Below, piece by piece: positions 7,045-31,640 of a stretch of DNA of 64,000 nucleotides; the first letter of the stretch is position 1, and each line of letters opens with the position of its first letter. Both the position numbers and the translations under genes were made by a program. The notes under the pieces were generated by a model. It was not told the origin of the DNA. It did not search any database and worked only from the letters and a program-made list of their open reading frames with translations. Source of the stretch: Deltaproteobacteria bacterium (GTDB lineage Bacteria > Desulfobacterota > Desulfomonilia > UBA1062); assembly GCA_018434685.1 (NCBI GenBank), contig JAHDOV010000015.1:124001-188000 (forward strand), read 5' to 3'.

Positions 7045-7121
<77 letters not shown>

Positions 7122-7138
7122 TTAAAAGCGCATTTTCA

Positions 7139-7214
7139 TGGTAGGCGGAACAGGGCTTGAACCTGTGACCCTCGGCTTGTAAGGCCGATGCTCTCCCAAC
7201 TGAGCTACCCGCCC
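7139..7214 (-). tRNA. tRNA-Val (anticodon TAC)
   Basis: A 76-nt cloverleaf with encoded CCA. The anticodon stem TCGGC/GCCGA encloses loop CTTACAA; the D-arm has AGCTCAGTTGGGAGAGC and the T-arm GGTTCAAGCC. It begins 17 bp after the hup stop with no terminator between, so it is probably released by processing of the hup transcript. Confidence 0.97.
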
Positions 7215-22009: not shown

Positions 22010-23617
22010 TTAACGATTCTTTCCCAAACGTTCATGACTCGTCACCCAATCCAGCGAAGAGATGGCTGCCGCCAGAGAGAGCTCTCCGGCAATAACAACA
22101 GCGGCAACGATCTCGGTAAACTTTTTGACTTTGCCCTGACCATAGCAGCCGAGTACCTCCAGGCATTCGCGCTGAGTCGGCAGCCCGGTCCCCCCGCCAT
22201 AGGTCGCGACAATGAGAGACGGAAGGGTAAGTGATCCGTAAAGATCCCCGTCAGGGGTTACCTCGGTAAAGAGAAGCCCGGTTGATGCCTCTGCAATATT
22301 GGCTACGTCCTGTCCGGTGGCAATGAACAATGCGGCAAGGGCATTGGCAGCATGCAGCCCGTTACTGCTGGAGCCGGCCATGAATGCACCGAGATCTGCA
22401 ACCTTGCTGTGATAGACCAGGGTCTCGGGATCCACCCGCATGTGCTGAATCAGTATATCGCGCGGGATGGTGATCTCAGCAACGACCCTTTTGCCGCGGG
22501 TATTGAGTGTATTGATCTGCGAGCACTTCTTGTCAGTGGACATATTGCCGTCCATATAGAAATGCACTATCCCTTTGTACTGTGCCAGGATCCAGTTGCA
22601 TGCAACGAATGTTGCCAGGCTTACCATATTCTGGCCTGCTGCATCGCCGGTGTAGTAGTTGAACCGCAGGTGAACTAATTTGCTTACCAGATATTTCTCG
22701 ATATCCAGCAGCTTGGCAACCTTTGAGTTGGATTCCGCCTGCTCACGGATCTCATCCATATGTTCATCTATCCACCAGGCAAAGTCCCTGGCTTCACGGG
22801 AGGACTTAAACACGAATACCGGGGCACGCTGCATCTTGTCTTCCAGGATGGTTGTGGTGATGCCGCCGCACATATTGAGGATCTTCATGCCGCGGTTGTA
22901 TGAGGCAACCAGTGAACCTTCGCTGGTACACAGAGGAATAAGGAACTCGCCTTTTGCATACTCTCCATTGACCCTGATGGGGCCTGCAAAACCCATGGGG
23001 ATCTGTGCAACACCGGTGAAATTTTCGATGTTGCCCTGGGTAAGAGCCGAATCAAAGGAATACTGCTTGATATGGTTGAGTTTTGTTCCCGAGAAGTCCT
23101 CTACAAATTCCTGCCGCTTCTCAATGATCTCAGGTTCATAATTAGCCAGCTTGTTACAGGGTATTCTCTGCTGCTCCACCCTGGTCTCAACAACGCTGTC
23201 AATGGCAGCCAGGTCTAACACGCCGAATTGCCCTGTTTCAATGGAAAGGGTAATCTGGTGTTCCTGGTTTTTGCTCAGTGTCTCTGTTCTTGCGTGAATC
23301 TCCATATCCTCACCAAAAGGAAAAGGAATGGCTTTTTTCATATCAATTTCAGTGGCCTTGCGCCGCGAACCGTTGGTTCTGACAACTATATTATGCAATG
23401 GAATTTCTTTGCCGTTGATGGTTACGTCGAAGACCCCTGTGAGCATTGCTTCTCGTATCTGATTCTTGATGCAGAAGCTCACGCCGTCTTCGACGTTTTT
23501 CAGACTGCCGGTTGAATACATTTTCTTAATGATAAGGGGGGATACTGTTACCTGATTCTTTGGCTCAGTTATGCTGCTCAGCGAGATCACCCTATGCTTA
23601 GTTGTCTGATTTCTCAT
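22010..23617 (-). CDS. Hydroxymethylglutaryl-CoA reductase with extra N-terminal domain
   Basis: Reduces HMG-CoA to mevalonate (or the reverse). The ATG at 23617 is chosen because GGAAGGG lies just upstream; it gives 535 residues. The catalytic domain (about 150-535) has E233 in CTSEGSLVAS, GDAAGQN at 324-330, a lysine at 363/364, D437 in TGQDVANIAEAS and H528 in VTSHERLGKNR, so all catalytic residues are present. Residues 20-135 form a separate soluble domain (YSTGSLKNVEDGVSF, NGKEIPLHNIVVR) that I cannot assign. There are no membrane helices, unlike eukaryotic class I enzymes. Most Desulfobacterota make isoprenoids by the MEP route, so the gene is unexpected. It is followed by the DUF2156 gene. 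Confidence 0.9.
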   Translation of the reverse strand: MRNQTTKHRVISLSSITEPKNQVTVSPLIIKKMYSTGSLKNVEDGVSFCIKNQIREAMLTGVFDVTINGKEIPLHNIVVRTNGSRRKATEIDMKKAIPFPFGEDMEIHARTETLSKNQEHQITLSIETGQFGVLDLAAIDSVVETRVEQQRIPCNKLANYEPEIIEKRQEFVEDFSGTKLNHIKQYSFDSALTQGNIENFTGVAQIPMGFAGPIRVNGEYAKGEFLIPLCTSEGSLVASYNRGMKILNMCGGITTTILEDKMQRAPVFVFKSSREARDFAWWIDEHMDEIREQAESNSKVAKLLDIEKYLVSKLVHLRFNYYTGDAAGQNMVSLATFVACNWILAQYKGIVHFYMDGNMSTDKKCSQINTLNTRGKRVVAEITIPRDILIQHMRVDPETLVYHSKVADLGAFMAGSSSNGLHAANALAALFIATGQDVANIAEASTGLLFTEVTPDGDLYGSLTLPSLIVATYGGGTGLPTQRECLEVLGCYGQGKVKKFTEIVAAVVIAGELSLAAAISSLDWVTSHERLGKNR

Positions 23618-23708
23618 AAATCCCTTCCTTTCATTGTATTCTTGAGTAAGAATTGCACAGTGTTTGTTTGCTTTGAATGCCAACACATTCTTTGCATGGA
23701 GGGGAACT

Positions 23709-23724
23709 TTCACGAAACGTGCCA
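23709..23724 (-). promoter_or_regulatory. Sigma-54-like -24/-12 element before HMG-CoA reductase
   Basis: On the minus strand TGGCACGTTTCGTGAA has the GG (-24) and G-A (-12) dinucleotides at sigma-54 spacing. The -12 is GA rather than the usual GC, so the match is imperfect. The predicted start lies about 80 nt before the ATG. A near-identical element sits before the chemosensory operon at 51542-51557. Confidence 0.35.
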
Positions 23725-23762
23725 AGAAATACCTGAGAAAACACGAAAGAAATACGAGATTA

Positions 23763-23783
23763 ATATCAGGTGTTACCTGATAT
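23763..23783. promoter_or_regulatory. Perfect 21-bp palindrome, candidate operator for HMG-CoA reductase
   Basis: Arms ATATCAGGT (23763-23771) and ACCTGATAT (23775-23783) are separated by GTT. The centre lies about 155 bp upstream of the HMG-CoA reductase ATG and about 50 bp upstream of the TGGCACG element, a distance suited to an activator site. A half-site ACCTGA recurs at about 23731. No regulator gene is adjacent. Confidence 0.55.
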
Positions 23784-23876
23784 CTATTATGGTAGATCTA
23801 TTATTATCAATGACTTGTGTATTTCGGGGATCAATCCGATATTTTTCATAGGTGAAATATTTTTCCACTTCTTGAG

Positions 23877-23915
23877 GGAAAAGGATTACCCGGTAGCCGG
23901 TGCCCCGGGTAATCC
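23877..23915 (-). terminator. Rho-independent terminator after the methyltransferase gene
   Basis: A perfect 11-bp stem (GGATTACCCGG at 23883-23893 with CCGGGTAATCC at 23905-23915) is followed by TTTT on the minus strand, 10 bp past the methyltransferase stop. It separates this gene from the HMG-CoA reductase unit. Confidence 0.88.
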
Positions 23916-23924
23916 GAGACCATT

Positions 23925-24569
23925 TTATCCCTTCTGTGCCCGGATTGAATAGTACCGGTCATCAAAGAGAAACTGCAAATATTTTACGTCAGTTATCTCA
24001 AGACCCAGCTGTTTCATCTGCGTCTGATAATCGTATACCGGGTGGAAGGCGTTCTTGGCCATCACCACAAAGATAATATCAGCAATGTACCAGTATATGT
24101 TCTGGAATAATTTCGAGACAGGACCGCCGGAAGGGAGCGAGAAATCGCCGACAACCACATGGCCGCCCTTTTTTGCGAGCTTGCTCAGGTGCTCGAGGAC
24201 CTTGGTGACCATATTCTTCTCGAAGACGTTCAGGAAGAAATTCGCATACACGACATCATACTGATGATATTCATCAAACTTCAGGATATCCTGATGGACC
24301 CGTCTGATCGGGTGCGTAAAATAACGGCCCCGGGTTCTCTTGTCAAGAATATTGAGCATGGACTCCGACAGGTCGACGACGGTAACCTCCGCACCCAGCT
24401 CAGCTGCCCCGATGGCATCTATGCCCTGCCCTACCCCTGCAAACAGAACCTTGTCATCGGGCTTGATGTACCCATGCATGGCTGTCTTGCATTTATCGAT
24501 CTGTCCTGCAGAGAATATCATTGCCAGAAAATCATACAACGGACCAATTATCTTATACTTATCATTCAT
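23925..24569 (-). CDS. Class I SAM-dependent methyltransferase (UbiE-like)
   Basis: A 214-residue Rossmann methyltransferase. The N-terminal YKIIGPLYDFLAMIFSAGQIDKCK resembles UbiE/MenG and other lipid or quinone methyltransferases. SAM motif I is unusual, VLFAGVGQGIDAIGAAE, where an acidic residue is normally seen instead of Phe-Ala. Motif II is VTVVDLSESML, and DVVYANFFLNVF and GGHVVVGDFSLPSGG follow. The substrate is unknown; a hydrophobic substrate is an inference from the family. It has its own promoter and terminator. The neighbours HMG-CoA reductase and DUF2156 may belong to the same process. Confidence 0.78.
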   Translation of the reverse strand: MNDKYKIIGPLYDFLAMIFSAGQIDKCKTAMHGYIKPDDKVLFAGVGQGIDAIGAAELGAEVTVVDLSESMLNILDKRTRGRYFTHPIRRVHQDILKFDEYHQYDVVYANFFLNVFEKNMVTKVLEHLSKLAKKGGHVVVGDFSLPSGGPVSKLFQNIYWYIADIIFVVMAKNAFHPVYDYQTQMKQLGLEITDVKYLQFLFDDRYYSIRAQKG

Positions 24570-25105: not shown

Positions 25106-26413
25106 TCACCCGGGAACCGAATCACGCACGCCCACCCTCTTTCCTGCGAGCGGGACACCGCGGCGCCTGGCCATGCGCACCCAAAAGGCGTTGTGCAGGA
25201 CCCGGAGGTCCTTCTTGATTCCCCGCATGTTCTCGGTCCATGCCGTCTCGTTCATCGATGCCCTGGTGAACGCCTCAGACGAGAGCTCAGCGAGAGATGC
25301 ATCCCGCGTGTCGAACCGGTAGAAGGGAAGCCCCTGGCAGTAGCGCTCCTCCATTTCGCTCACCTCCCCGGCCATGGCACTGCAAAGGCCTCTATAGCGC
25401 AGGACAGCATCGATATGGAATGCCTCGTGCCGCCACCAGTAGGAGTCCTCCGCGTATCGCGGTCCCGCTGCAGCAACTCCCCCGGGCGGGCAGGCAGGCA
25501 GGAACGGTTTGAAAGGGGTCAGGCACGGACATGATCCGGCCGTGACAAAGATCTTGAACCCGTCATCGGCATCGAGTGCAACCACCATGGACCCCGTGGT
25601 CTGGGACTTCCGGATCAGGGGACCGGCGGCATGCATGCACACATCCTGGTTGAAGCCCGTCAGCGGGTGCCTCCCCCGATGAGACCTGAGCATGGCAAAG
25701 GCGTCTGTTACAGTGAAGCTGCCCCTTCTGCGTTCCAGCTGTTCGAGGTTCTGCTGCCTCCTGGCGGCACTCCCGGCGAACCGGGTGATCAGGGGGTCAG
25801 CAAGGGCATCGACCCGCACATCCGGCGCAAAACTCGAGGAGACCCCTGCGGTTTTTGTTGTGATCCCGTTGGATATCGCCGCATAGTCCTTCGGATGGGT
25901 AAGGACATAATCCCTCCCCATGGTCTCCAGCACGATGATGTCGCTGCGGTCCATAATCAGGTAGGAATTCATGTACTGGAATCCCTTGTCCGTATAGCCG
26001 CAGGGACCGGCCTGACCATAGCGCCTGAGCAGGTCGATGATGACATGTGCTGCCTCGTGGGCCGTGTCTGCCCTTTCAAGTCCGAGCCGCAGGAGGTCCA
26101 TGCCGATGAGCCCGGGGGCCTTCTCCGGCTTGATCCTTGTAAAGAGGGCCTCGTTGCCGATGACCACGCCCTTTTCATTCACCCCCATCTCGGCTCCCCA
26201 GAGCCAGAACGGCTTCGAGAGCACGAGGGCACGGGTCGATGCCACCTGGGGTATGGAGCTATACGTGCACATCATGGTTTCTCCACGTGTATGCTTTCTC
26301 CCCGGTATTGAGACGACGATCTGAGCCTCATCGGGCTCCCTGTCGGAATTCTTCCCGAAGATGGACTCTCCACCGCGTGTACAGGCAGAACCTATTGCAA
26401 AGGTATCACACAT
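25106..26413 (-). CDS. Secernin-like C69 family dipeptidase (Ntn hydrolase)
   Basis: The family's nucleophile is a cysteine exposed near the N-terminus. Here it follows the initiator directly in MCDTFAIGSACTRGGESIFGKNSDREPDEAQ, the secernin/C69 signature. I choose the ATG at 26413 because it places this Cys at position 2 and has GGGGGTG just upstream; in-frame ATGs 5 and 7 codons upstream are also possible. The length is 435 residues. WLWGAEMGVNEKGVVIGNEAL and NSYLIMDRSDIIVLETMGRDY are further family segments. No signal peptide is seen, so it is probably cytoplasmic. It is divergent from the AOR gene; the substrate is unknown. Confidence 0.82.
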   Translation of the reverse strand: MCDTFAIGSACTRGGESIFGKNSDREPDEAQIVVSIPGRKHTRGETMMCTYSSIPQVASTRALVLSKPFWLWGAEMGVNEKGVVIGNEALFTRIKPEKAPGLIGMDLLRLGLERADTAHEAAHVIIDLLRRYGQAGPCGYTDKGFQYMNSYLIMDRSDIIVLETMGRDYVLTHPKDYAAISNGITTKTAGVSSSFAPDVRVDALADPLITRFAGSAARRQQNLEQLERRRGSFTVTDAFAMLRSHRGRHPLTGFNQDVCMHAAGPLIRKSQTTGSMVVALDADDGFKIFVTAGSCPCLTPFKPFLPACPPGGVAAAGPRYAEDSYWWRHEAFHIDAVLRYRGLCSAMAGEVSEMEERYCQGLPFYRFDTRDASLAELSSEAFTRASMNETAWTENMRGIKKDLRVLHNAFWVRMARRRGVPLAGKRVGVRDSVPG

Positions 26414-26673
26414 AAGCACCCCCGGCATGGGCATCTCACGGCACCGGAGATTGCCCTGAAATCCCCTCAGCATCTCTGAGAGAATACCATTTTTATCCTT
26501 GACTCATGAAAGAAAGCCATGTTCAATATACGCGAAGTCGTTTTCATTGTCATTTATAATGAAATGTTATCATTAATTTTATCAACCGATGTCTGCCATT
26601 GCTGCAGAGATCTGGACTTTGTTTCTGGTATGACTATATTACTATATTATTACCAAATTGCAGGAGGTATGTA

Positions 26674-28533
26674 ATGGCCACAGGGTATGCGGGGAAATTT
26701 TTACTCGTCAATCTGACGGACGGTTCCTGTACAGATTTTACCATCGCGGACTCAGAGCTTCAGAAGTATATCGGGGGGAGCTGCCTGGCGGCAAAGATGT
26801 ATCTCGACAGATATCCCCTCGATACCGACCCGTTATCACCTGAAAATCCGCTCATGATCATGACCGGGCCCATGGTGGGAAGCGGTTTCCCGGGCACTTC
26901 GCGGTTTACCATCTGCACCAAGGCCCCGCAGACCGGCATCTGGGGGGAATCTGCCTGCGGTGGAACCTTTGGACCGGAGCTCAAGCGCGCAGGGTACGAC
27001 GGTATCGTGCTCGAGGGGCAGTCGCCCGAACCGGTGTGCCTCGCCATACTGGACGGGCAGGCAACGCTCGAAGATGCTTCCGCCTTGTGGGGAACGGATA
27101 TCTACGAGGCAACCGACCTGCTCAAGGCCGAAGACAAGTCCCGCAAGGTCCTCGCCATAGGTCCTGCAGGCGAAAACCTCTCGAGGATTGCCGCCATCGG
27201 CAACGACAAAGGCCACTTCAGCGGACGGACCGGCCTCGGAGCCGTGATGGGTGCAAAAAAACTCAAGGCCATTGTCGTCAAGGGCACGCTCAAAACCGGC
27301 AAGGCCGACGAGAACAGGTACAAGGAGGTGCTGAAAACGGCCATTGCCGAGGTGAAGGGGTCTGCACTCGCCGAGGGGCTCCACATGATGGGTTCCGACG
27401 CCAACATGGATCTGGGCATGGTGACCGGCGATGTCCCGATAAAAAACTGGACCGTGGGAGAGGATTTCGACCTGTCCTTCAACCTGAGCGGTCCCACCAT
27501 GAGGGAAAAGTACCTGACAAAGGCCCATGCGTGCGCCAACTGTCCGGTCGCCTGCAAACGGGTGGTAAAGGTCGATGACGGCCCGTACCGCACAGACGAG
27601 GGACCGGGCCCTGAGTATGAAACCTGCGGAACGTTCGGCACCATGCTCATGAACTCCGACCTCGCCGCGGTGATCAAGGCCAACGAGCTCTGCAACAGAT
27701 ACGGCCTGGACACCATCAGCTGCGGTTCGGCCATCGCCCTGGCCATGGAGCTCTTTGAGAAAGGCACACTCACCACGGATCAAGTTGACGGCCTGGATCT
27801 CACCTGGGGAAATATGGGTGCAGTCATGCCCCTGATCAGGAAGATCGCATACCGGGAAGGATTCGGTGATATCCTCGCTGACGGTGCGGTACATGCGGCC
27901 AGGAAGATCGGCGGGGACGCCATGGACTGTGTTGTCCACGTCAAGGGCCTGGAAGCGCCCATGCACGACCCGAGGGCCTTTCATGGAATGGGCCTGGCAT
28001 ACATGATGTCCAACAGGGGTGCCTGCCACCTTCAGCATGCCGTGCTTGCAACCGAACAGGGTATGGCCTCCTGGCCGCAGCTCTTCGACATGAAGGACGA
28101 CTACACAGGCACCACGAGCGTTGACAAGGCAGCCCTGGTCTACAATTCGGAAAACTACGGTATCCTCGGCAACTCGCTGGCCATCTGCCACTACCTCGTC
28201 GACATCCTCAAGCCCGAGACCATTCTCGAGGCATTCAATGCCATTACCGGTTTCAATCTGACCTCTGACGAACTTCTCGAAGCTGGAATGCGTGACTGGA
28301 CCTTAAAGAGGGGTTTCAACAACCTGCTCGGCATCACCGCAAAGGACGACGTACTGCCCAAGAGACTCCTGACAGCCCTTAAAGAGGGTGGAGGCGCAGG
28401 GTCTGTGCCCGACGTGGCGCTGCTGCTGAGCGAATACTATGCGATCAGGGGGCTCGATGAGCGCGGATTCCCCAGGAAAGAGAAGCTCACCGAACTCGGC
28501 CTCGATGAATTGAAGGACAGGCTCTACCGATAA
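26674..28533 (+). CDS. Aldehyde:ferredoxin oxidoreductase (tungsten/molybdopterin)
   Basis: Oxidises aldehydes to carboxylates, or reduces acids, with ferredoxin; it carries a tungsto-bispterin and one [4Fe-4S] cluster. The ATG at 26674 follows a perfect AGGAGG by 6 nt and gives 619 residues, full length for AOR. The N-terminal domain starts GYAGKFLLVNLTDG and includes MTGPMVGSGFPGTSRF and RTGLGAVMGAKKLKAI. The cluster Cys are CANCPVAC near residues 287-294, with the fourth in LAICHYL near 510. FHGMGLAYMMSNRGACHLQH is typical of pterin binding. The substrate cannot be told. It heads a four-gene run with two SCP2 proteins and an Fe-alcohol dehydrogenase. Confidence 0.95.
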   Translation: MATGYAGKFLLVNLTDGSCTDFTIADSELQKYIGGSCLAAKMYLDRYPLDTDPLSPENPLMIMTGPMVGSGFPGTSRFTICTKAPQTGIWGESACGGTFGPELKRAGYDGIVLEGQSPEPVCLAILDGQATLEDASALWGTDIYEATDLLKAEDKSRKVLAIGPAGENLSRIAAIGNDKGHFSGRTGLGAVMGAKKLKAIVVKGTLKTGKADENRYKEVLKTAIAEVKGSALAEGLHMMGSDANMDLGMVTGDVPIKNWTVGEDFDLSFNLSGPTMREKYLTKAHACANCPVACKRVVKVDDGPYRTDEGPGPEYETCGTFGTMLMNSDLAAVIKANELCNRYGLDTISCGSAIALAMELFEKGTLTTDQVDGLDLTWGNMGAVMPLIRKIAYREGFGDILADGAVHAARKIGGDAMDCVVHVKGLEAPMHDPRAFHGMGLAYMMSNRGACHLQHAVLATEQGMASWPQLFDMKDDYTGTTSVDKAALVYNSENYGILGNSLAICHYLVDILKPETILEAFNAITGFNLTSDELLEAGMRDWTLKRGFNNLLGITAKDDVLPKRLLTALKEGGGAGSVPDVALLLSEYYAIRGLDERGFPRKEKLTELGLDELKDRLYR

Positions 28534-28559
28534 TAAATATTTTATAGGAGGTTTATACC

Positions 28560-28982
28560 ATGGGAGTACGAGCACTTACACAGGAATGGATGGACGCATA
28601 CAAGGCAGCAATACAGGCGGATCCGGAATATAAAGATATAGCCAAGAACTGGGAAGGCAGCGTGGCGCTCGTTGTACTTCCGGACCCTGCCAAGGGGATA
28701 CCTGAAACGGTGTACCTCTTCCAGGACTACTGGCATGGCGATGTCGGCGAATTCGTGGTGTGCGACAAGGACAAGGCCGAGAGCGCAAAGTTCGTCATGA
28801 CCGGCGAGTATGCCCGCTGGAAGCAGATTGCCCGCAAGGAACTCGATGCGACAAAGGCCCTGCTCCAGGGAAAGCTGAAGATGAAGGGCGATCTGCCCTA
28901 TGTGGTGAGAAACATCAAGACCGTCAACAAGGTCATCGACATCCTGGGCGCCTTCGAAACCATCTGGCCCGACGAGGTCTAG
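28560..28982 (+). CDS. SCP2 sterol-binding-domain protein
   Basis: A 140-residue soluble protein of the SCP2 fold, which holds hydrophobic ligands such as acyl chains. Recognisable parts are IAKNWEGSVALVVLPDP, FVMTGEYARWKQIARKELD, and the C-terminal LLQGKLKMKGDLPYVVRNIKTVNKVIDIL segment typical of the family. AGGAGG lies 9 nt before the ATG. It begins 26 bp after the AOR stop, so the pair is very likely co-expressed. The link to AOR suggests that its ligand is the lipid-like substrate or product of the dehydrogenases; this is an inference. Confidence 0.85.
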   Translation: MGVRALTQEWMDAYKAAIQADPEYKDIAKNWEGSVALVVLPDPAKGIPETVYLFQDYWHGDVGEFVVCDKDKAESAKFVMTGEYARWKQIARKELDATKALLQGKLKMKGDLPYVVRNIKTVNKVIDILGAFETIWPDEV

Positions 28983-29125
28983 TTCGAAACATCGGCCAGG
29001 TACACTTTTGCACAGGAGCGTCCGGAGCTCGCAGGGAGCCTCCCGCAAGCGTGGGTAAGGCTTCACGGTCAGCGGTGCGCGAGGATGTCATCGGCAAGCT
29101 CTTTTATGTGATAGAGGAGGAGAAT

Positions 29126-30289
29126 ATGGGATACGACGAGGATCTTTCATTCAATTATTTCGGACCGACAAAGATTGTCTTTGGGATAGATTCCTCCAAG
29201 GACGTGGAGATCGAGATGAACTCCCTGGGGGGCACCAGGGCGGTTGTCGTGACAGACAAGGGCATTATCGCTGCCGGACTCATCGAAGGAATCACAAAGA
29301 CACTGGGGAGCAAGTGTGTCGGAGTATTCAGCGACATCCCGCAGGATACGGGAGTGGACGTGGTCGATAAAGGGGCCGCCTTTGCGAGGGAGAACAAGGC
29401 GAATATTGTCATCAGCGTTGGCGGGGGAAGTGTCATCGACACAGCCAAAGGGATGTGCATCCTCCTGACGGAAGGAGGCAATCTGCGCGACTTCAACGGC
29501 ATACAGCTCCTGAACCGCCTGCAGACACCGCACATTGTCATCCCCACAACTGCAGGAACGGGAAGCGAGGTAACCAATGCTGCAGTGATCATGGACAAGG
29601 AGATGGGGCAGAAGCGCCTGCTCGTGGAAAACTTCAATGTACCGAGGCTTGCCATCCTCGACCCGAAGATGACGGAGAAGCTCCCCAGGCTCTTGACAGC
29701 CGGCACCGGGATGGATGCCATGACCCATGCCGTGGAGGCGCTTCACTCCATACCGCACGAACCCATCACCGATGCCCTGGCCATACACGCCATACGGCTC
29801 CTGGCCAAATACCTCCCGGTCTGTATCGAGAACGGATCCGACCTGGTTGCCAGAGGCCAGGCACAGATCGCGGCCACCATTGCCGGCTGGGCCTTCGGCA
29901 ATGCCATGGTGGGAATTGTCCACGCCATGGCACACTCCATCGGTGCCATCGCCCACGTCCCGCACGGCATTGCAAACGGCATCCTGCTGGCCGAGTGTAT
30001 GGACTACAACCTCGAGGAGGCAGCGGACGGATATGCCATGGTAGCCGAGGCCTTCGGCCTGCGGGAAAAAGGCATGGACGACATGGATGCCGCCAGGGCA
30101 GCCGTTCATGCCATGAGGGTTTTCAGCAAAACGATCGGTCACCCGCAGAGGCTCTCGGAAATGGGGGTGAAGGAACAGGACATTGAAAAGGCCGCGGAGC
30201 TGAGCCTGTCAGACGGGTCCATCGTGAACAACCCGCGTTTCGTGCTCGAGTCATCCGAGGTCCTCGACATTTTCAGGAAGGTACTCTAA
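29126..30289 (+). CDS. Iron-containing alcohol dehydrogenase
   Basis: Group III NAD(P)-dependent alcohol dehydrogenase of 387 residues. The ATG at 29126 follows GAGGAGGAG. NAD binding is shown by ISVGGGSVIDTAKGM (about 95-109) and PTTAGTGSEVTNAAVI (about 136-151). The metal site lies in MDAMTHAVEAL and HAMAHSIGAIAHVPHGIANG with its conserved His residues. It could interconvert an alcohol with the aldehyde used by the AOR upstream. It lies 143 bp after the first SCP2 gene and is followed by a hairpin and a second SCP2 gene. Confidence 0.93.
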   Translation: MGYDEDLSFNYFGPTKIVFGIDSSKDVEIEMNSLGGTRAVVVTDKGIIAAGLIEGITKTLGSKCVGVFSDIPQDTGVDVVDKGAAFARENKANIVISVGGGSVIDTAKGMCILLTEGGNLRDFNGIQLLNRLQTPHIVIPTTAGTGSEVTNAAVIMDKEMGQKRLLVENFNVPRLAILDPKMTEKLPRLLTAGTGMDAMTHAVEALHSIPHEPITDALAIHAIRLLAKYLPVCIENGSDLVARGQAQIAATIAGWAFGNAMVGIVHAMAHSIGAIAHVPHGIANGILLAECMDYNLEEAADGYAMVAEAFGLREKGMDDMDAARAAVHAMRVFSKTIGHPQRLSEMGVKEQDIEKAAELSLSDGSIVNNPRFVLESSEVLDIFRKVL

Positions 30290-30297
30290 GCACACGG

Positions 30298-30323
30298 CAG
30301 GGGAGCCCCCAAGGGCTTCCCTG
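30298..30323 (+). terminator. Terminator-like hairpin after the alcohol dehydrogenase
   Basis: An 11-bp stem with one G-U (CAGGGGAGCCC at 30298-30308, GGGCTTCCCTG at 30313-30323) has a CCAA loop. The following T tract is weak, so it may be partial and allow read-through into the second SCP2 gene. Confidence 0.5.
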
Positions 30324-30374
30324 TTCGATTATACCATCAGGTGAAAGCCCTGATGGACAACTGGAGGAATACCC

Positions 30375-30794
30375 ATGACAGAAGGTATGGTCGTCAATAA
30401 TGCCCAGGACGTTCCCTTTTCCTACATCCTGGCCGAACTCCTCGAGTCAAACCTCGAGCAGAAGCCTCACAAGCTCAGGACATTCAACAAGATCTACGGC
30501 GTCGTTGCCATCGACCTGAAGGATATTGAAGCCATCGTCACCCTCATCTTCTCCGGCGGCAGGGTGCGTATTGAACAGGGTATCATCGGCAAACCCGACA
30601 TCATCATCAAGACCGACTCCGACAAGGTCATCGGCCTGAATTCCATCACTATCAAGTTCGGTCTGCCCTACTACTTCGACGAGGCGGGCATGACCGTGAT
30701 CAGGCAGATCTTATCCGGAGAACTCAAGATCGAGGGAATGCTGCTGCACCCGGTCATCCTCACCCGGCTCACCAAGATCATGTCGGTGATGTGA
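30375..30794 (+). CDS. Second SCP2 sterol-binding-domain protein
   Basis: A 139-residue soluble protein with the SCP2 pattern: VVAIDLKDIEAIVTLIFSGGRVRIEQG, then PDIIIKTDSDKVIGLNSI, and a C-terminal LSGELKIEGMLLHPVILTRLTKIMSVM helix that closes the ligand tunnel. It differs clearly in sequence from the first SCP2 protein at 28560, so it is not a recent duplicate. GGAGG lies before the ATG. It is the last gene of the AOR group and is convergent with the SGNH hydrolase gene. Confidence 0.8.
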   Translation: MTEGMVVNNAQDVPFSYILAELLESNLEQKPHKLRTFNKIYGVVAIDLKDIEAIVTLIFSGGRVRIEQGIIGKPDIIIKTDSDKVIGLNSITIKFGLPYYFDEAGMTVIRQILSGELKIEGMLLHPVILTRLTKIMSVM

Positions 30795-30827: not shown

Positions 30828-31640
30828 TCAGGTTCTGATCTCAACCCCATCACCCTTGAGCACCTCTGCCCAGGCATCTGCCATGAGCCGGTAGCCGGTG
30901 TCATTGAAATGGAGCCGGTCTTTGAGCCAGATATCGTCACGGTCTCTGCACAGGGTATAGAAATCAGGTCCTGGCCGTACAAGGCCCGGGTATGACGCAA
31001 CTATCTCGCCGATACGGGCATTGACCATTTCCGTATACCCCTTAAGCCTGCCCTTTACTGATCTTCCAGAGAACAGGACCCTGTCGATCCCGAGAAAACC
31101 GAGTCCTCCGGGATAGGCATTGGGAGGTATCTTGGCAAGATAGGTGACAACCCCTTTCTCCTTCAGGTTCATGAGCGTGACGATCAAATTTTCACGCGGT
31201 GTGATGAAACCATCATCCTCATACCCCACGACCCCCTGAAGCAGGCACGATACCCAGTCCGGCACTGCCGAGAGGCAGACATCGTTGGTGCCGAGCATCA
31301 TGAGGCAGATCTTCACGGTTTGAGGCGAGCGCATAATCTCATCTAAGGGTTCGCCGTTTAAGGGGAAATCCTTGACCCCGTCCTTTTCCCATCTCATGCC
31401 GGGCAGCCAGTCCCTCGTGGTGCTCCCTCCCCTGCCCAGGTTGAGGATCAGTTCAGGTCCTGCATGACCGGAGAGCATCTCTCCCAGCAGGTACGGGTAC
31501 GAGGTCGGGAGGAGTTTCCACGTGGAGGCCTCTGCGTACGGCGCATATTCGGTGATGCCCGGCTGGGAACCTGCGGTGAGTGAGTCGCCTATGGCTATGA
31601 TCTGGCCGGGTTTGTCGATAACGATACCGGCGCCGGACAT
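30828..31640 (-). CDS. SGNH/GDSL-family hydrolase
   Basis: A 270-residue serine esterase-type protein without a signal peptide. Block I is IIAIGDSLTAG with nucleophile S20. Block III is MMLGTNDVCLS, and Block V is KDRLHFNDTGYRLM with the Asp-His pair. The substrate is unknown; esters or acyl thioesters are usual. Its start lies 2 bp after the stop of the amino-acid ABC ATPase, so it is co-transcribed with that importer, an uncommon partner. Confidence 0.85.
   Translation of the reverse strand: MSGAGIVIDKPGQIIAIGDSLTAGSQPGITEYAPYAEASTWKLLPTSYPYLLGEMLSGHAGPELILNLGRGGSTTRDWLPGMRWEKDGVKDFPLNGEPLDEIMRSPQTVKICLMMLGTNDVCLSAVPDWVSCLLQGVVGYEDDGFITPRENLIVTLMNLKEKGVVTYLAKIPPNAYPGGLGFLGIDRVLFSGRSVKGRLKGYTEMVNARIGEIVASYPGLVRPGPDFYTLCRDRDDIWLKDRLHFNDTGYRLMADAWAEVLKGDGVEIRT

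Follow-up and report, generated by a model that had tools for sequence, protein, structure and literature searches.

Four neighboring genes, encoding a putative aldehyde:ferredoxin oxidoreductase (AOR), an SCP2 protein (SCPA), an iron-type alcohol dehydrogenase (Fe-ADH), and a second SCP2 protein (SCPB), stay linked in the genomes of uncultured bacteria, mostly anaerobes, from several phyla. By open reading frame list and Pfam matches, the module occupies positions 26674 to 30794 on the plus strand of the 64,000-nucleotide stretch of DNA analyzed here (the window). We hold with moderate confidence that the four genes are one cassette in which the SCP2 carriers would present an insoluble substrate to the alcohol dehydrogenase and the AOR, and we expect the reaction to run in the oxidative direction. 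Fe-ADH would catalyze the step between alcohol and aldehyde in either direction, using a nicotinamide cofactor that is probably NAD(H), and AOR would interconvert aldehyde and carboxylic acid at a tungstopterin/[4Fe-4S] center with ferredoxin. SCPA and SCPB would each have a pocket for the hydrophobic compound (alcohol, aldehyde, or acid), in which the reactive aldehyde would be shielded and from which it would be handed to both soluble enzymes, much as UbiJ does with ubiquinone intermediates. Oxidatively, alcohol would be converted to aldehyde and then to acid, which a ligase encoded outside the module would activate with CoA, and the route would yield NADH and reduced ferredoxin.

The four genes and their products

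An initial annotation, made from the letters of the window, had described four same-strand genes alternating redox enzymes with SCP2 proteins, and both open reading frames and Pfam domains agree with it (Table 1). The gaps between consecutive genes are 26, 143, and 85 bp, and a Shine-Dalgarno-like sequence of the AGGAGG/GGAGG type precedes each of the four start codons. The minus strand across the module holds only antisense open reading frames. RNA folding of positions 30285 to 30380 gave −39.5 kcal/mol and showed a strong GC-rich hairpin after the dehydrogenase gene. Because this hairpin has no T-tract, and a terminator scan of the plus strand found none, a single operon is likely, though not proven. 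The hairpin is a possible RNA-processing or attenuation element and may tune SCPB expression.

Table 1. Positions of the module, its flanking genes, and the related sister operons (window coordinates unless a locus is named)
Feature	Positions	Strand	Length	Evidence or remark
AAT-like flanking gene	25106-26473	-	455-aa ORF	Sub-threshold match only to AAT (acyl-CoA:6-APA acyltransferase) family
AOR	26674-28533	+	619 aa	PF02730 E 6e-73 (245 bits), PF01314 E 3e-125 (419 bits)
SCPA	28560-28982	+	140 aa	PF02036 E 8.5e-12 (45.7 bits)
Fe-ADH	29126-30289	+	387 aa	PF00465 E 1e-43, PF25137 E 1.5e-52
GC-rich hairpin	30295-30326	+		Directly 3' of ADH stop codon; RNA folding
SCPB	30375-30794	+	139 aa	PF02036 E 5e-5 (23.9 bits)
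GDSL hydrolase flanking gene	30828-31640	Opposite to module		
Sister operon, L177	L177:656-10590			
Sister operon, L178	L178:3783-13630			
Sister operon, L179	L179:4703-15970			

The AFOR_N and AFOR_C domains cover the full length of AOR, as they do in members of the AOR family, and the protein aligns full length with the solved AORs 9g7j, 9mqx, and 1aor (the last over residues 4 to 612). Its [4Fe-4S] ligands are C287, C290, C294, and C505 and its catalytic residues E316 and H452; in the alignment, these are present in 62 of 62 module AORs, with C505 in 61 and a gap in one. By numbering counted from the alignment, E316 and H452 are the equivalents of E313 and H448 of Pyrococcus AOR, which we take to be catalytic there. 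A strict text pattern had hinted at loss of the catalytic histidine in distant members; the alignment shows it in all 62. Assignment to the BamB-type benzoyl-CoA reductases was also rejected, as BamB (4z3w) scored 185 bits versus 379 to 397 for AORs. The enzyme is predicted to be a homodimer-type aldehyde:ferredoxin oxidoreductase of the tungsten type. In the module AORs, the motif PMHDPR (residues 429 to 434; positions 27958 to 27975) replaces the PAYDPR of canonical AORs, and this Tyr-to-His change may mark differences in substrate or proton transfer.

Fe-ADH is a group III alcohol dehydrogenase with a GGGS nucleotide-binding motif and a metal site (D197, H201, H266, and H280) found in 54 of 54 sequences. 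Its nearest solved structures are the ADH domain of 9ldl and methanol and 1,3-propanediol dehydrogenases, and lactaldehyde reductase is among its nearest NCBIfam models, below the cut-off. With the active-site residues of both enzymes intact, the redox pair proposed in the initial annotation holds at the level of sequence, and both enzymes are expected to be catalytically active.

That annotation had also named two different lipid-binding SCP2 proteins, and structure models confirm two different small proteins with an SCP2 fold, predicted to be cytosolic and lipid binding. The SCPA model (pLDDT 91.4) has 2cx7 as its best fold match (E 2.8e-11, TM 0.83/0.89), and its profile matches the Thermus thermophilus SCP2 protein TT1886 (E 2e-22). 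SCPB is weakly similar to SCP2 proteins in sequence, with a PF02036 score just above the cut-off of 21.3 bits. Its model (pLDDT 83.5) is poor around residues 90 to 99, with residues 94 to 99 below 50, and its best fold matches are UbiJ structures (6h6p, 6h6o, and 6h6n; E 3e-6 to 1.2e-5). SCPB and UbiJ share about 16 to 19% identity in the structural alignment and match with E 3e-6 by fold but E 0.37 by profile. UbiJ binds ubiquinone intermediates and organizes a multiprotein complex, and UbiT has been proposed to play a UbiJ-like role without oxygen (PMC6747719). By analogy, SCPA and SCPB most plausibly work in the manner of UbiJ and UbiT, which is not a claim of membership in UbiJ; none of the immediate neighbors of the module in the window is a ubi gene.

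The host genome (4.29 Mb, 58 contigs, 99% complete) contains 8 AOR matches and 5 SCP2 matches in total. Its closest named relatives are MAGs (metagenome-assembled genomes) labeled Deltaproteobacteria or Syntrophaceae, so that an uncultured Thermodesulfobacteriota member of the Syntrophales type is its most likely source. On its contig C46 (L171:6465-11117), a third type of SCP2 protein is encoded, and its gene has AMP ligase-like, acyl-CoA dehydrogenase-like, and thiolase-like genes as neighbors. A short distance upstream of the module, at 22010 to 24569 on the minus strand, an HMG-CoA reductase gene (PF00368, N-terminal PF25653) lies beside a class I methyltransferase gene; in an actinobacterial MAG (L121, 8905 to 11460), an SCPA paralogue is followed by a UbiE-like methyltransferase and an HMG-CoA reductase. 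The sole Rfam matches in the window are two tandem tRNA genes (7048 to 7214, minus strand).

Linkage across phyla

Searching 84,980 species genomes with the SCPA alignment, we obtained 79 loci, 47 of them with enough flanking sequence. Within 5 kb of SCPA in these 47 loci, we found AOR in 42, Fe-ADH in 44, SCPB in 41, and all four genes together in 39. Since the loci were picked by similarity to SCPA, these counts hold for relatives of SCPA and not for SCP2 genes at large. The initial annotation had called for a neighborhood search and would have been undone by SCP2 genes unlinked to AOR in related genomes; the linkage is instead found both in relatives and across phyla. The module occurs in Thermodesulfobacteriota (Syntrophales, Smithellaceae, and Desulfobacterales), Actinomycetota, Bacillota, and one genome labeled Spirochaetota, although the Bacillota and Spirochaetota labels belong to MAGs, in which binning errors are possible. 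Among 148 relatives, SCPA and SCPB orthologues co-occurred less than 2 kb apart, and the order of AOR and ADH was unchanged. Within the same class, SCPB (E<1e-60) was present in 15 of 42 genomes, all of which also had SCPA; the two lay on one contig less than 2 kb apart in 14 of the 15, and in the other (G001) the contig ends partway through ADH. Not every genus of the family has the module, which is therefore an accessory trait.

Gene order differs between phyla in a regular way. It is AOR–SCPA–ADH–SCPB in Thermodesulfobacteriota, SCPA–ADH–SCPB–AOR in Actinomycetota, and SCPB–AOR–SCPA–ADH in a Bacillota MAG (L111), and these orders are cyclic permutations of one another. No fusions among the four genes were found in the loci examined, and a search for plasmid copies gave only two distant haloarchaeal SCP2 matches. 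In five Actinomycetota loci (L103, L106, L108, L110, and L112), a divergent pair of genes for a CCG-domain (HdrD-like) protein and a 4Fe-4S protein lies just upstream of SCPA; these proteins might accept electrons from AOR.

A tree of 69 AORs places those of the module in a single group of 38 (support 100/100), all SCP2 linked. A second SCP2-linked clade has eight members (100/100); one of these, L144, was scored as unlinked only because its locus is short, and the SCP2 genes are visible in L179. The pairwise distances of the four module proteins correlate (Spearman 0.63 to 0.84, Mantel p=0.001), as expected under co-inheritance. With so many AOR genes in the host genome, some neighbors of AOR are to be expected, and the four genes could in principle be chance neighbors or the SCP2 genes unrelated passengers. 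We consider this hardly credible, however, given the permuted order, the clade structure, the correlated distances, and the complete absence of the four genes from 20 random 18.4-kb regions of related genomes; the cross-phylum linkage refutes a chance neighborhood.

Sister operons, substrate, and direction

The second clade of AORs occurs in settings of its own. In L177, L178, and L179, a sister operon runs acyl-CoA dehydrogenase–SCPA–SCPB–clade-2 AOR–acyl-CoA ligase–two HGD-D–two BcrAD, with an additional iron-sulfur protein in L179; it may encode a new pathway for aromatic or alicyclic acids. An acyl-CoA ligase directly adjoins the clade-2 AOR in L124, L129, L133, and L177 to L181, and in the Syntrophomonadaceae loci (L124, L129, and L133), AOR and ligase are divergent from SCPA–ADH. 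In an Actinobacteria-labeled MAG (L126:4986-6873), a zinc MDR alcohol dehydrogenase replaces Fe-ADH between SCPA and an SCPB that falls under the Pfam threshold and was identified by similarity alone. The conserved function therefore seems to be the alcohol step. The SCPA/SCPB pair of L135 and L136 precedes a 3-hydroxyacyl-CoA dehydrogenase gene. Taken together, these variants imply that the SCP2 pair tracks AOR/ADH chemistry in more than one setting.

The initial annotation had proposed a lipid-aldehyde module. The module stands, but a lipid aldehyde as its substrate does not follow, as acyl-CoA ligase or acyl-CoA dehydrogenase genes flank 13 of 37 module loci versus 4 of 20 random regions, which is not a clear enrichment, and the sister operon places the carrier pair with benzoyl-CoA reductase-like subunits. 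An aromatic or alicyclic hydrophobic substrate is thus as open as a fatty one. The substrate might be an alcohol or aldehyde with a bulky aromatic, alicyclic, or isoprenoid skeleton, not a straight-chain lipid, and the SCP2 pair a general carrier for large hydrophobic rings. The sister operon is consistent with this, as is G087, in which carboxylase, acyl-CoA dehydrogenase, and ligase genes lie just upstream of the module. However, none of the four benzoyl-CoA reductase-like subunits reaches any NCBIfam equivalog cut-off, and these could therefore be 2-hydroxyacyl-CoA dehydratases or reductases of another kind; the sister-operon ligase scores highest, again below the cut-off, against long-chain fatty-acid ligases. 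We regard a strictly bulky substrate as possible but rather unlikely.

Because AOR is reversible, sequence does not fix the direction. We favor oxidation mainly because of the ligase adjoining the clade-2 AOR, an arrangement that fits aldehyde being converted to acid and then to acyl-CoA; no CoA ligase is adjacent to the module in the window. The converse, in which reduced ferredoxin would drive AOR from acid to aldehyde, Fe-ADH would make the alcohol, and the SCP2 proteins would carry lipid products, would serve as an electron sink or make fatty alcohols available for ether lipid or wax synthesis. Acid reduction by AOR and ADH is established in acetogens and Thermococcales, the window AOR aligned best with AORs proper, and Fe-ADHs often work as aldehyde reductases, in keeping with the lactaldehyde reductase model noted above. 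Against this, we noticed no ether-lipid or wax-ester genes adjoining the module in the loci read, and the ligase beside the sister AOR would consume the acid. A reductive run is, in our estimate, unlikely.

The module might also serve no growth pathway and instead clear reactive aldehydes, lipid or aromatic, that other processes in the cell produce. This would suit a cassette that stands alone in most genomes, with no recurrent set of pathway genes around it, and that offers one aldehyde two outlets, acid and alcohol. But the pair of dedicated carriers, together with an operon of SCP2, AOR, and ligase genes that leads toward acyl-CoA, suggests flux and not clearance; we consider detoxification distinctly improbable. 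The sequences and models show which genes the cassette has, their order and co-conservation, the intact catalytic residues, and the SCP2 folds. For the oxidative cassette, we infer substrate binding and hand-over, the class of substrate, and a physical complex, as well as a direction that is more likely oxidative. A broader reading, which we advance tentatively, is a soluble anaerobic metabolon in which the SCP2 pair would escort insoluble alcohol, aldehyde, and acid between the tungsten enzyme and Fe-ADH and would be reused with other oxidoreductases, namely, the second AOR with benzoyl-CoA reductase-like enzymes and the zinc alcohol dehydrogenase of the Actinobacteria-labeled MAG. If true, bacteria would have in this pair a carrier system of general use for hydrophobic redox intermediates.

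Significance and relation to known systems

Anaerobes are known to consume insoluble compounds, alkanes and fats among them, and the cassette would offer a testable answer to how insoluble aldehydes reach soluble metal enzymes. It would give a group of so far unannotated SCP2 proteins of bacteria a function and could mark the metabolism of hydrophobic alcohols in uncultured members of the Syntrophales, Actinomycetota, and Syntrophomonadaceae. In biotechnology, an SCP2-assisted AOR could serve the reduction of long-chain acids to alcohols. The initial annotation knew of no characterized bacterial system of this makeup, and we likewise found no AOR-plus-SCP2 arrangement in the open-access literature, a coverage that leaves most subscription journals outside.

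The AOR-ADH route of Pyrococcus, Thermococcus, and Clostridium autoethanogenum uses the same two enzyme classes and the same three oxidation states as the module. In contrast, the module AOR forms a separate clade, has PMHDPR in place of PAYDPR, and belongs to a fixed four-gene set; to our knowledge, SCP2 proteins are not part of the known route. The class I benzoyl-CoA reductase operons resemble the sister operon in having two HGD-D and two BcrAD subunits, there after AOR and CoA ligase, whereas the window module has neither type of subunit. Among SCP2 proteins, TT1886 of T. thermophilus (1wfr and 2cx7) is the closest solved relative of SCPA. The alkylsulfatases SdsA1 and Pisa1 (2cfu and 2yhe), which act on long-chain alkyl substrates, have a C-terminal SCP2-like domain that both the SCPA and SCPB models match; that domain is fused to a hydrolase, whereas the module carriers are free-standing and partnered with AOR and ADH. 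UbiJ and UbiT, too, are small SCP2 proteins of the bacterial cytosol that serve a single set of enzymes (PMC6747719), but the partners in the module are alcohol/aldehyde redox enzymes, and each cassette has two SCP2 proteins. The two-enzyme AOR-ADH route is known. Its conserved combination with two SCP2 proteins, which we did not find in the open-access literature, suggests that water-insoluble alcohols and aldehydes are moved and oxidized or reduced in a way not yet described.
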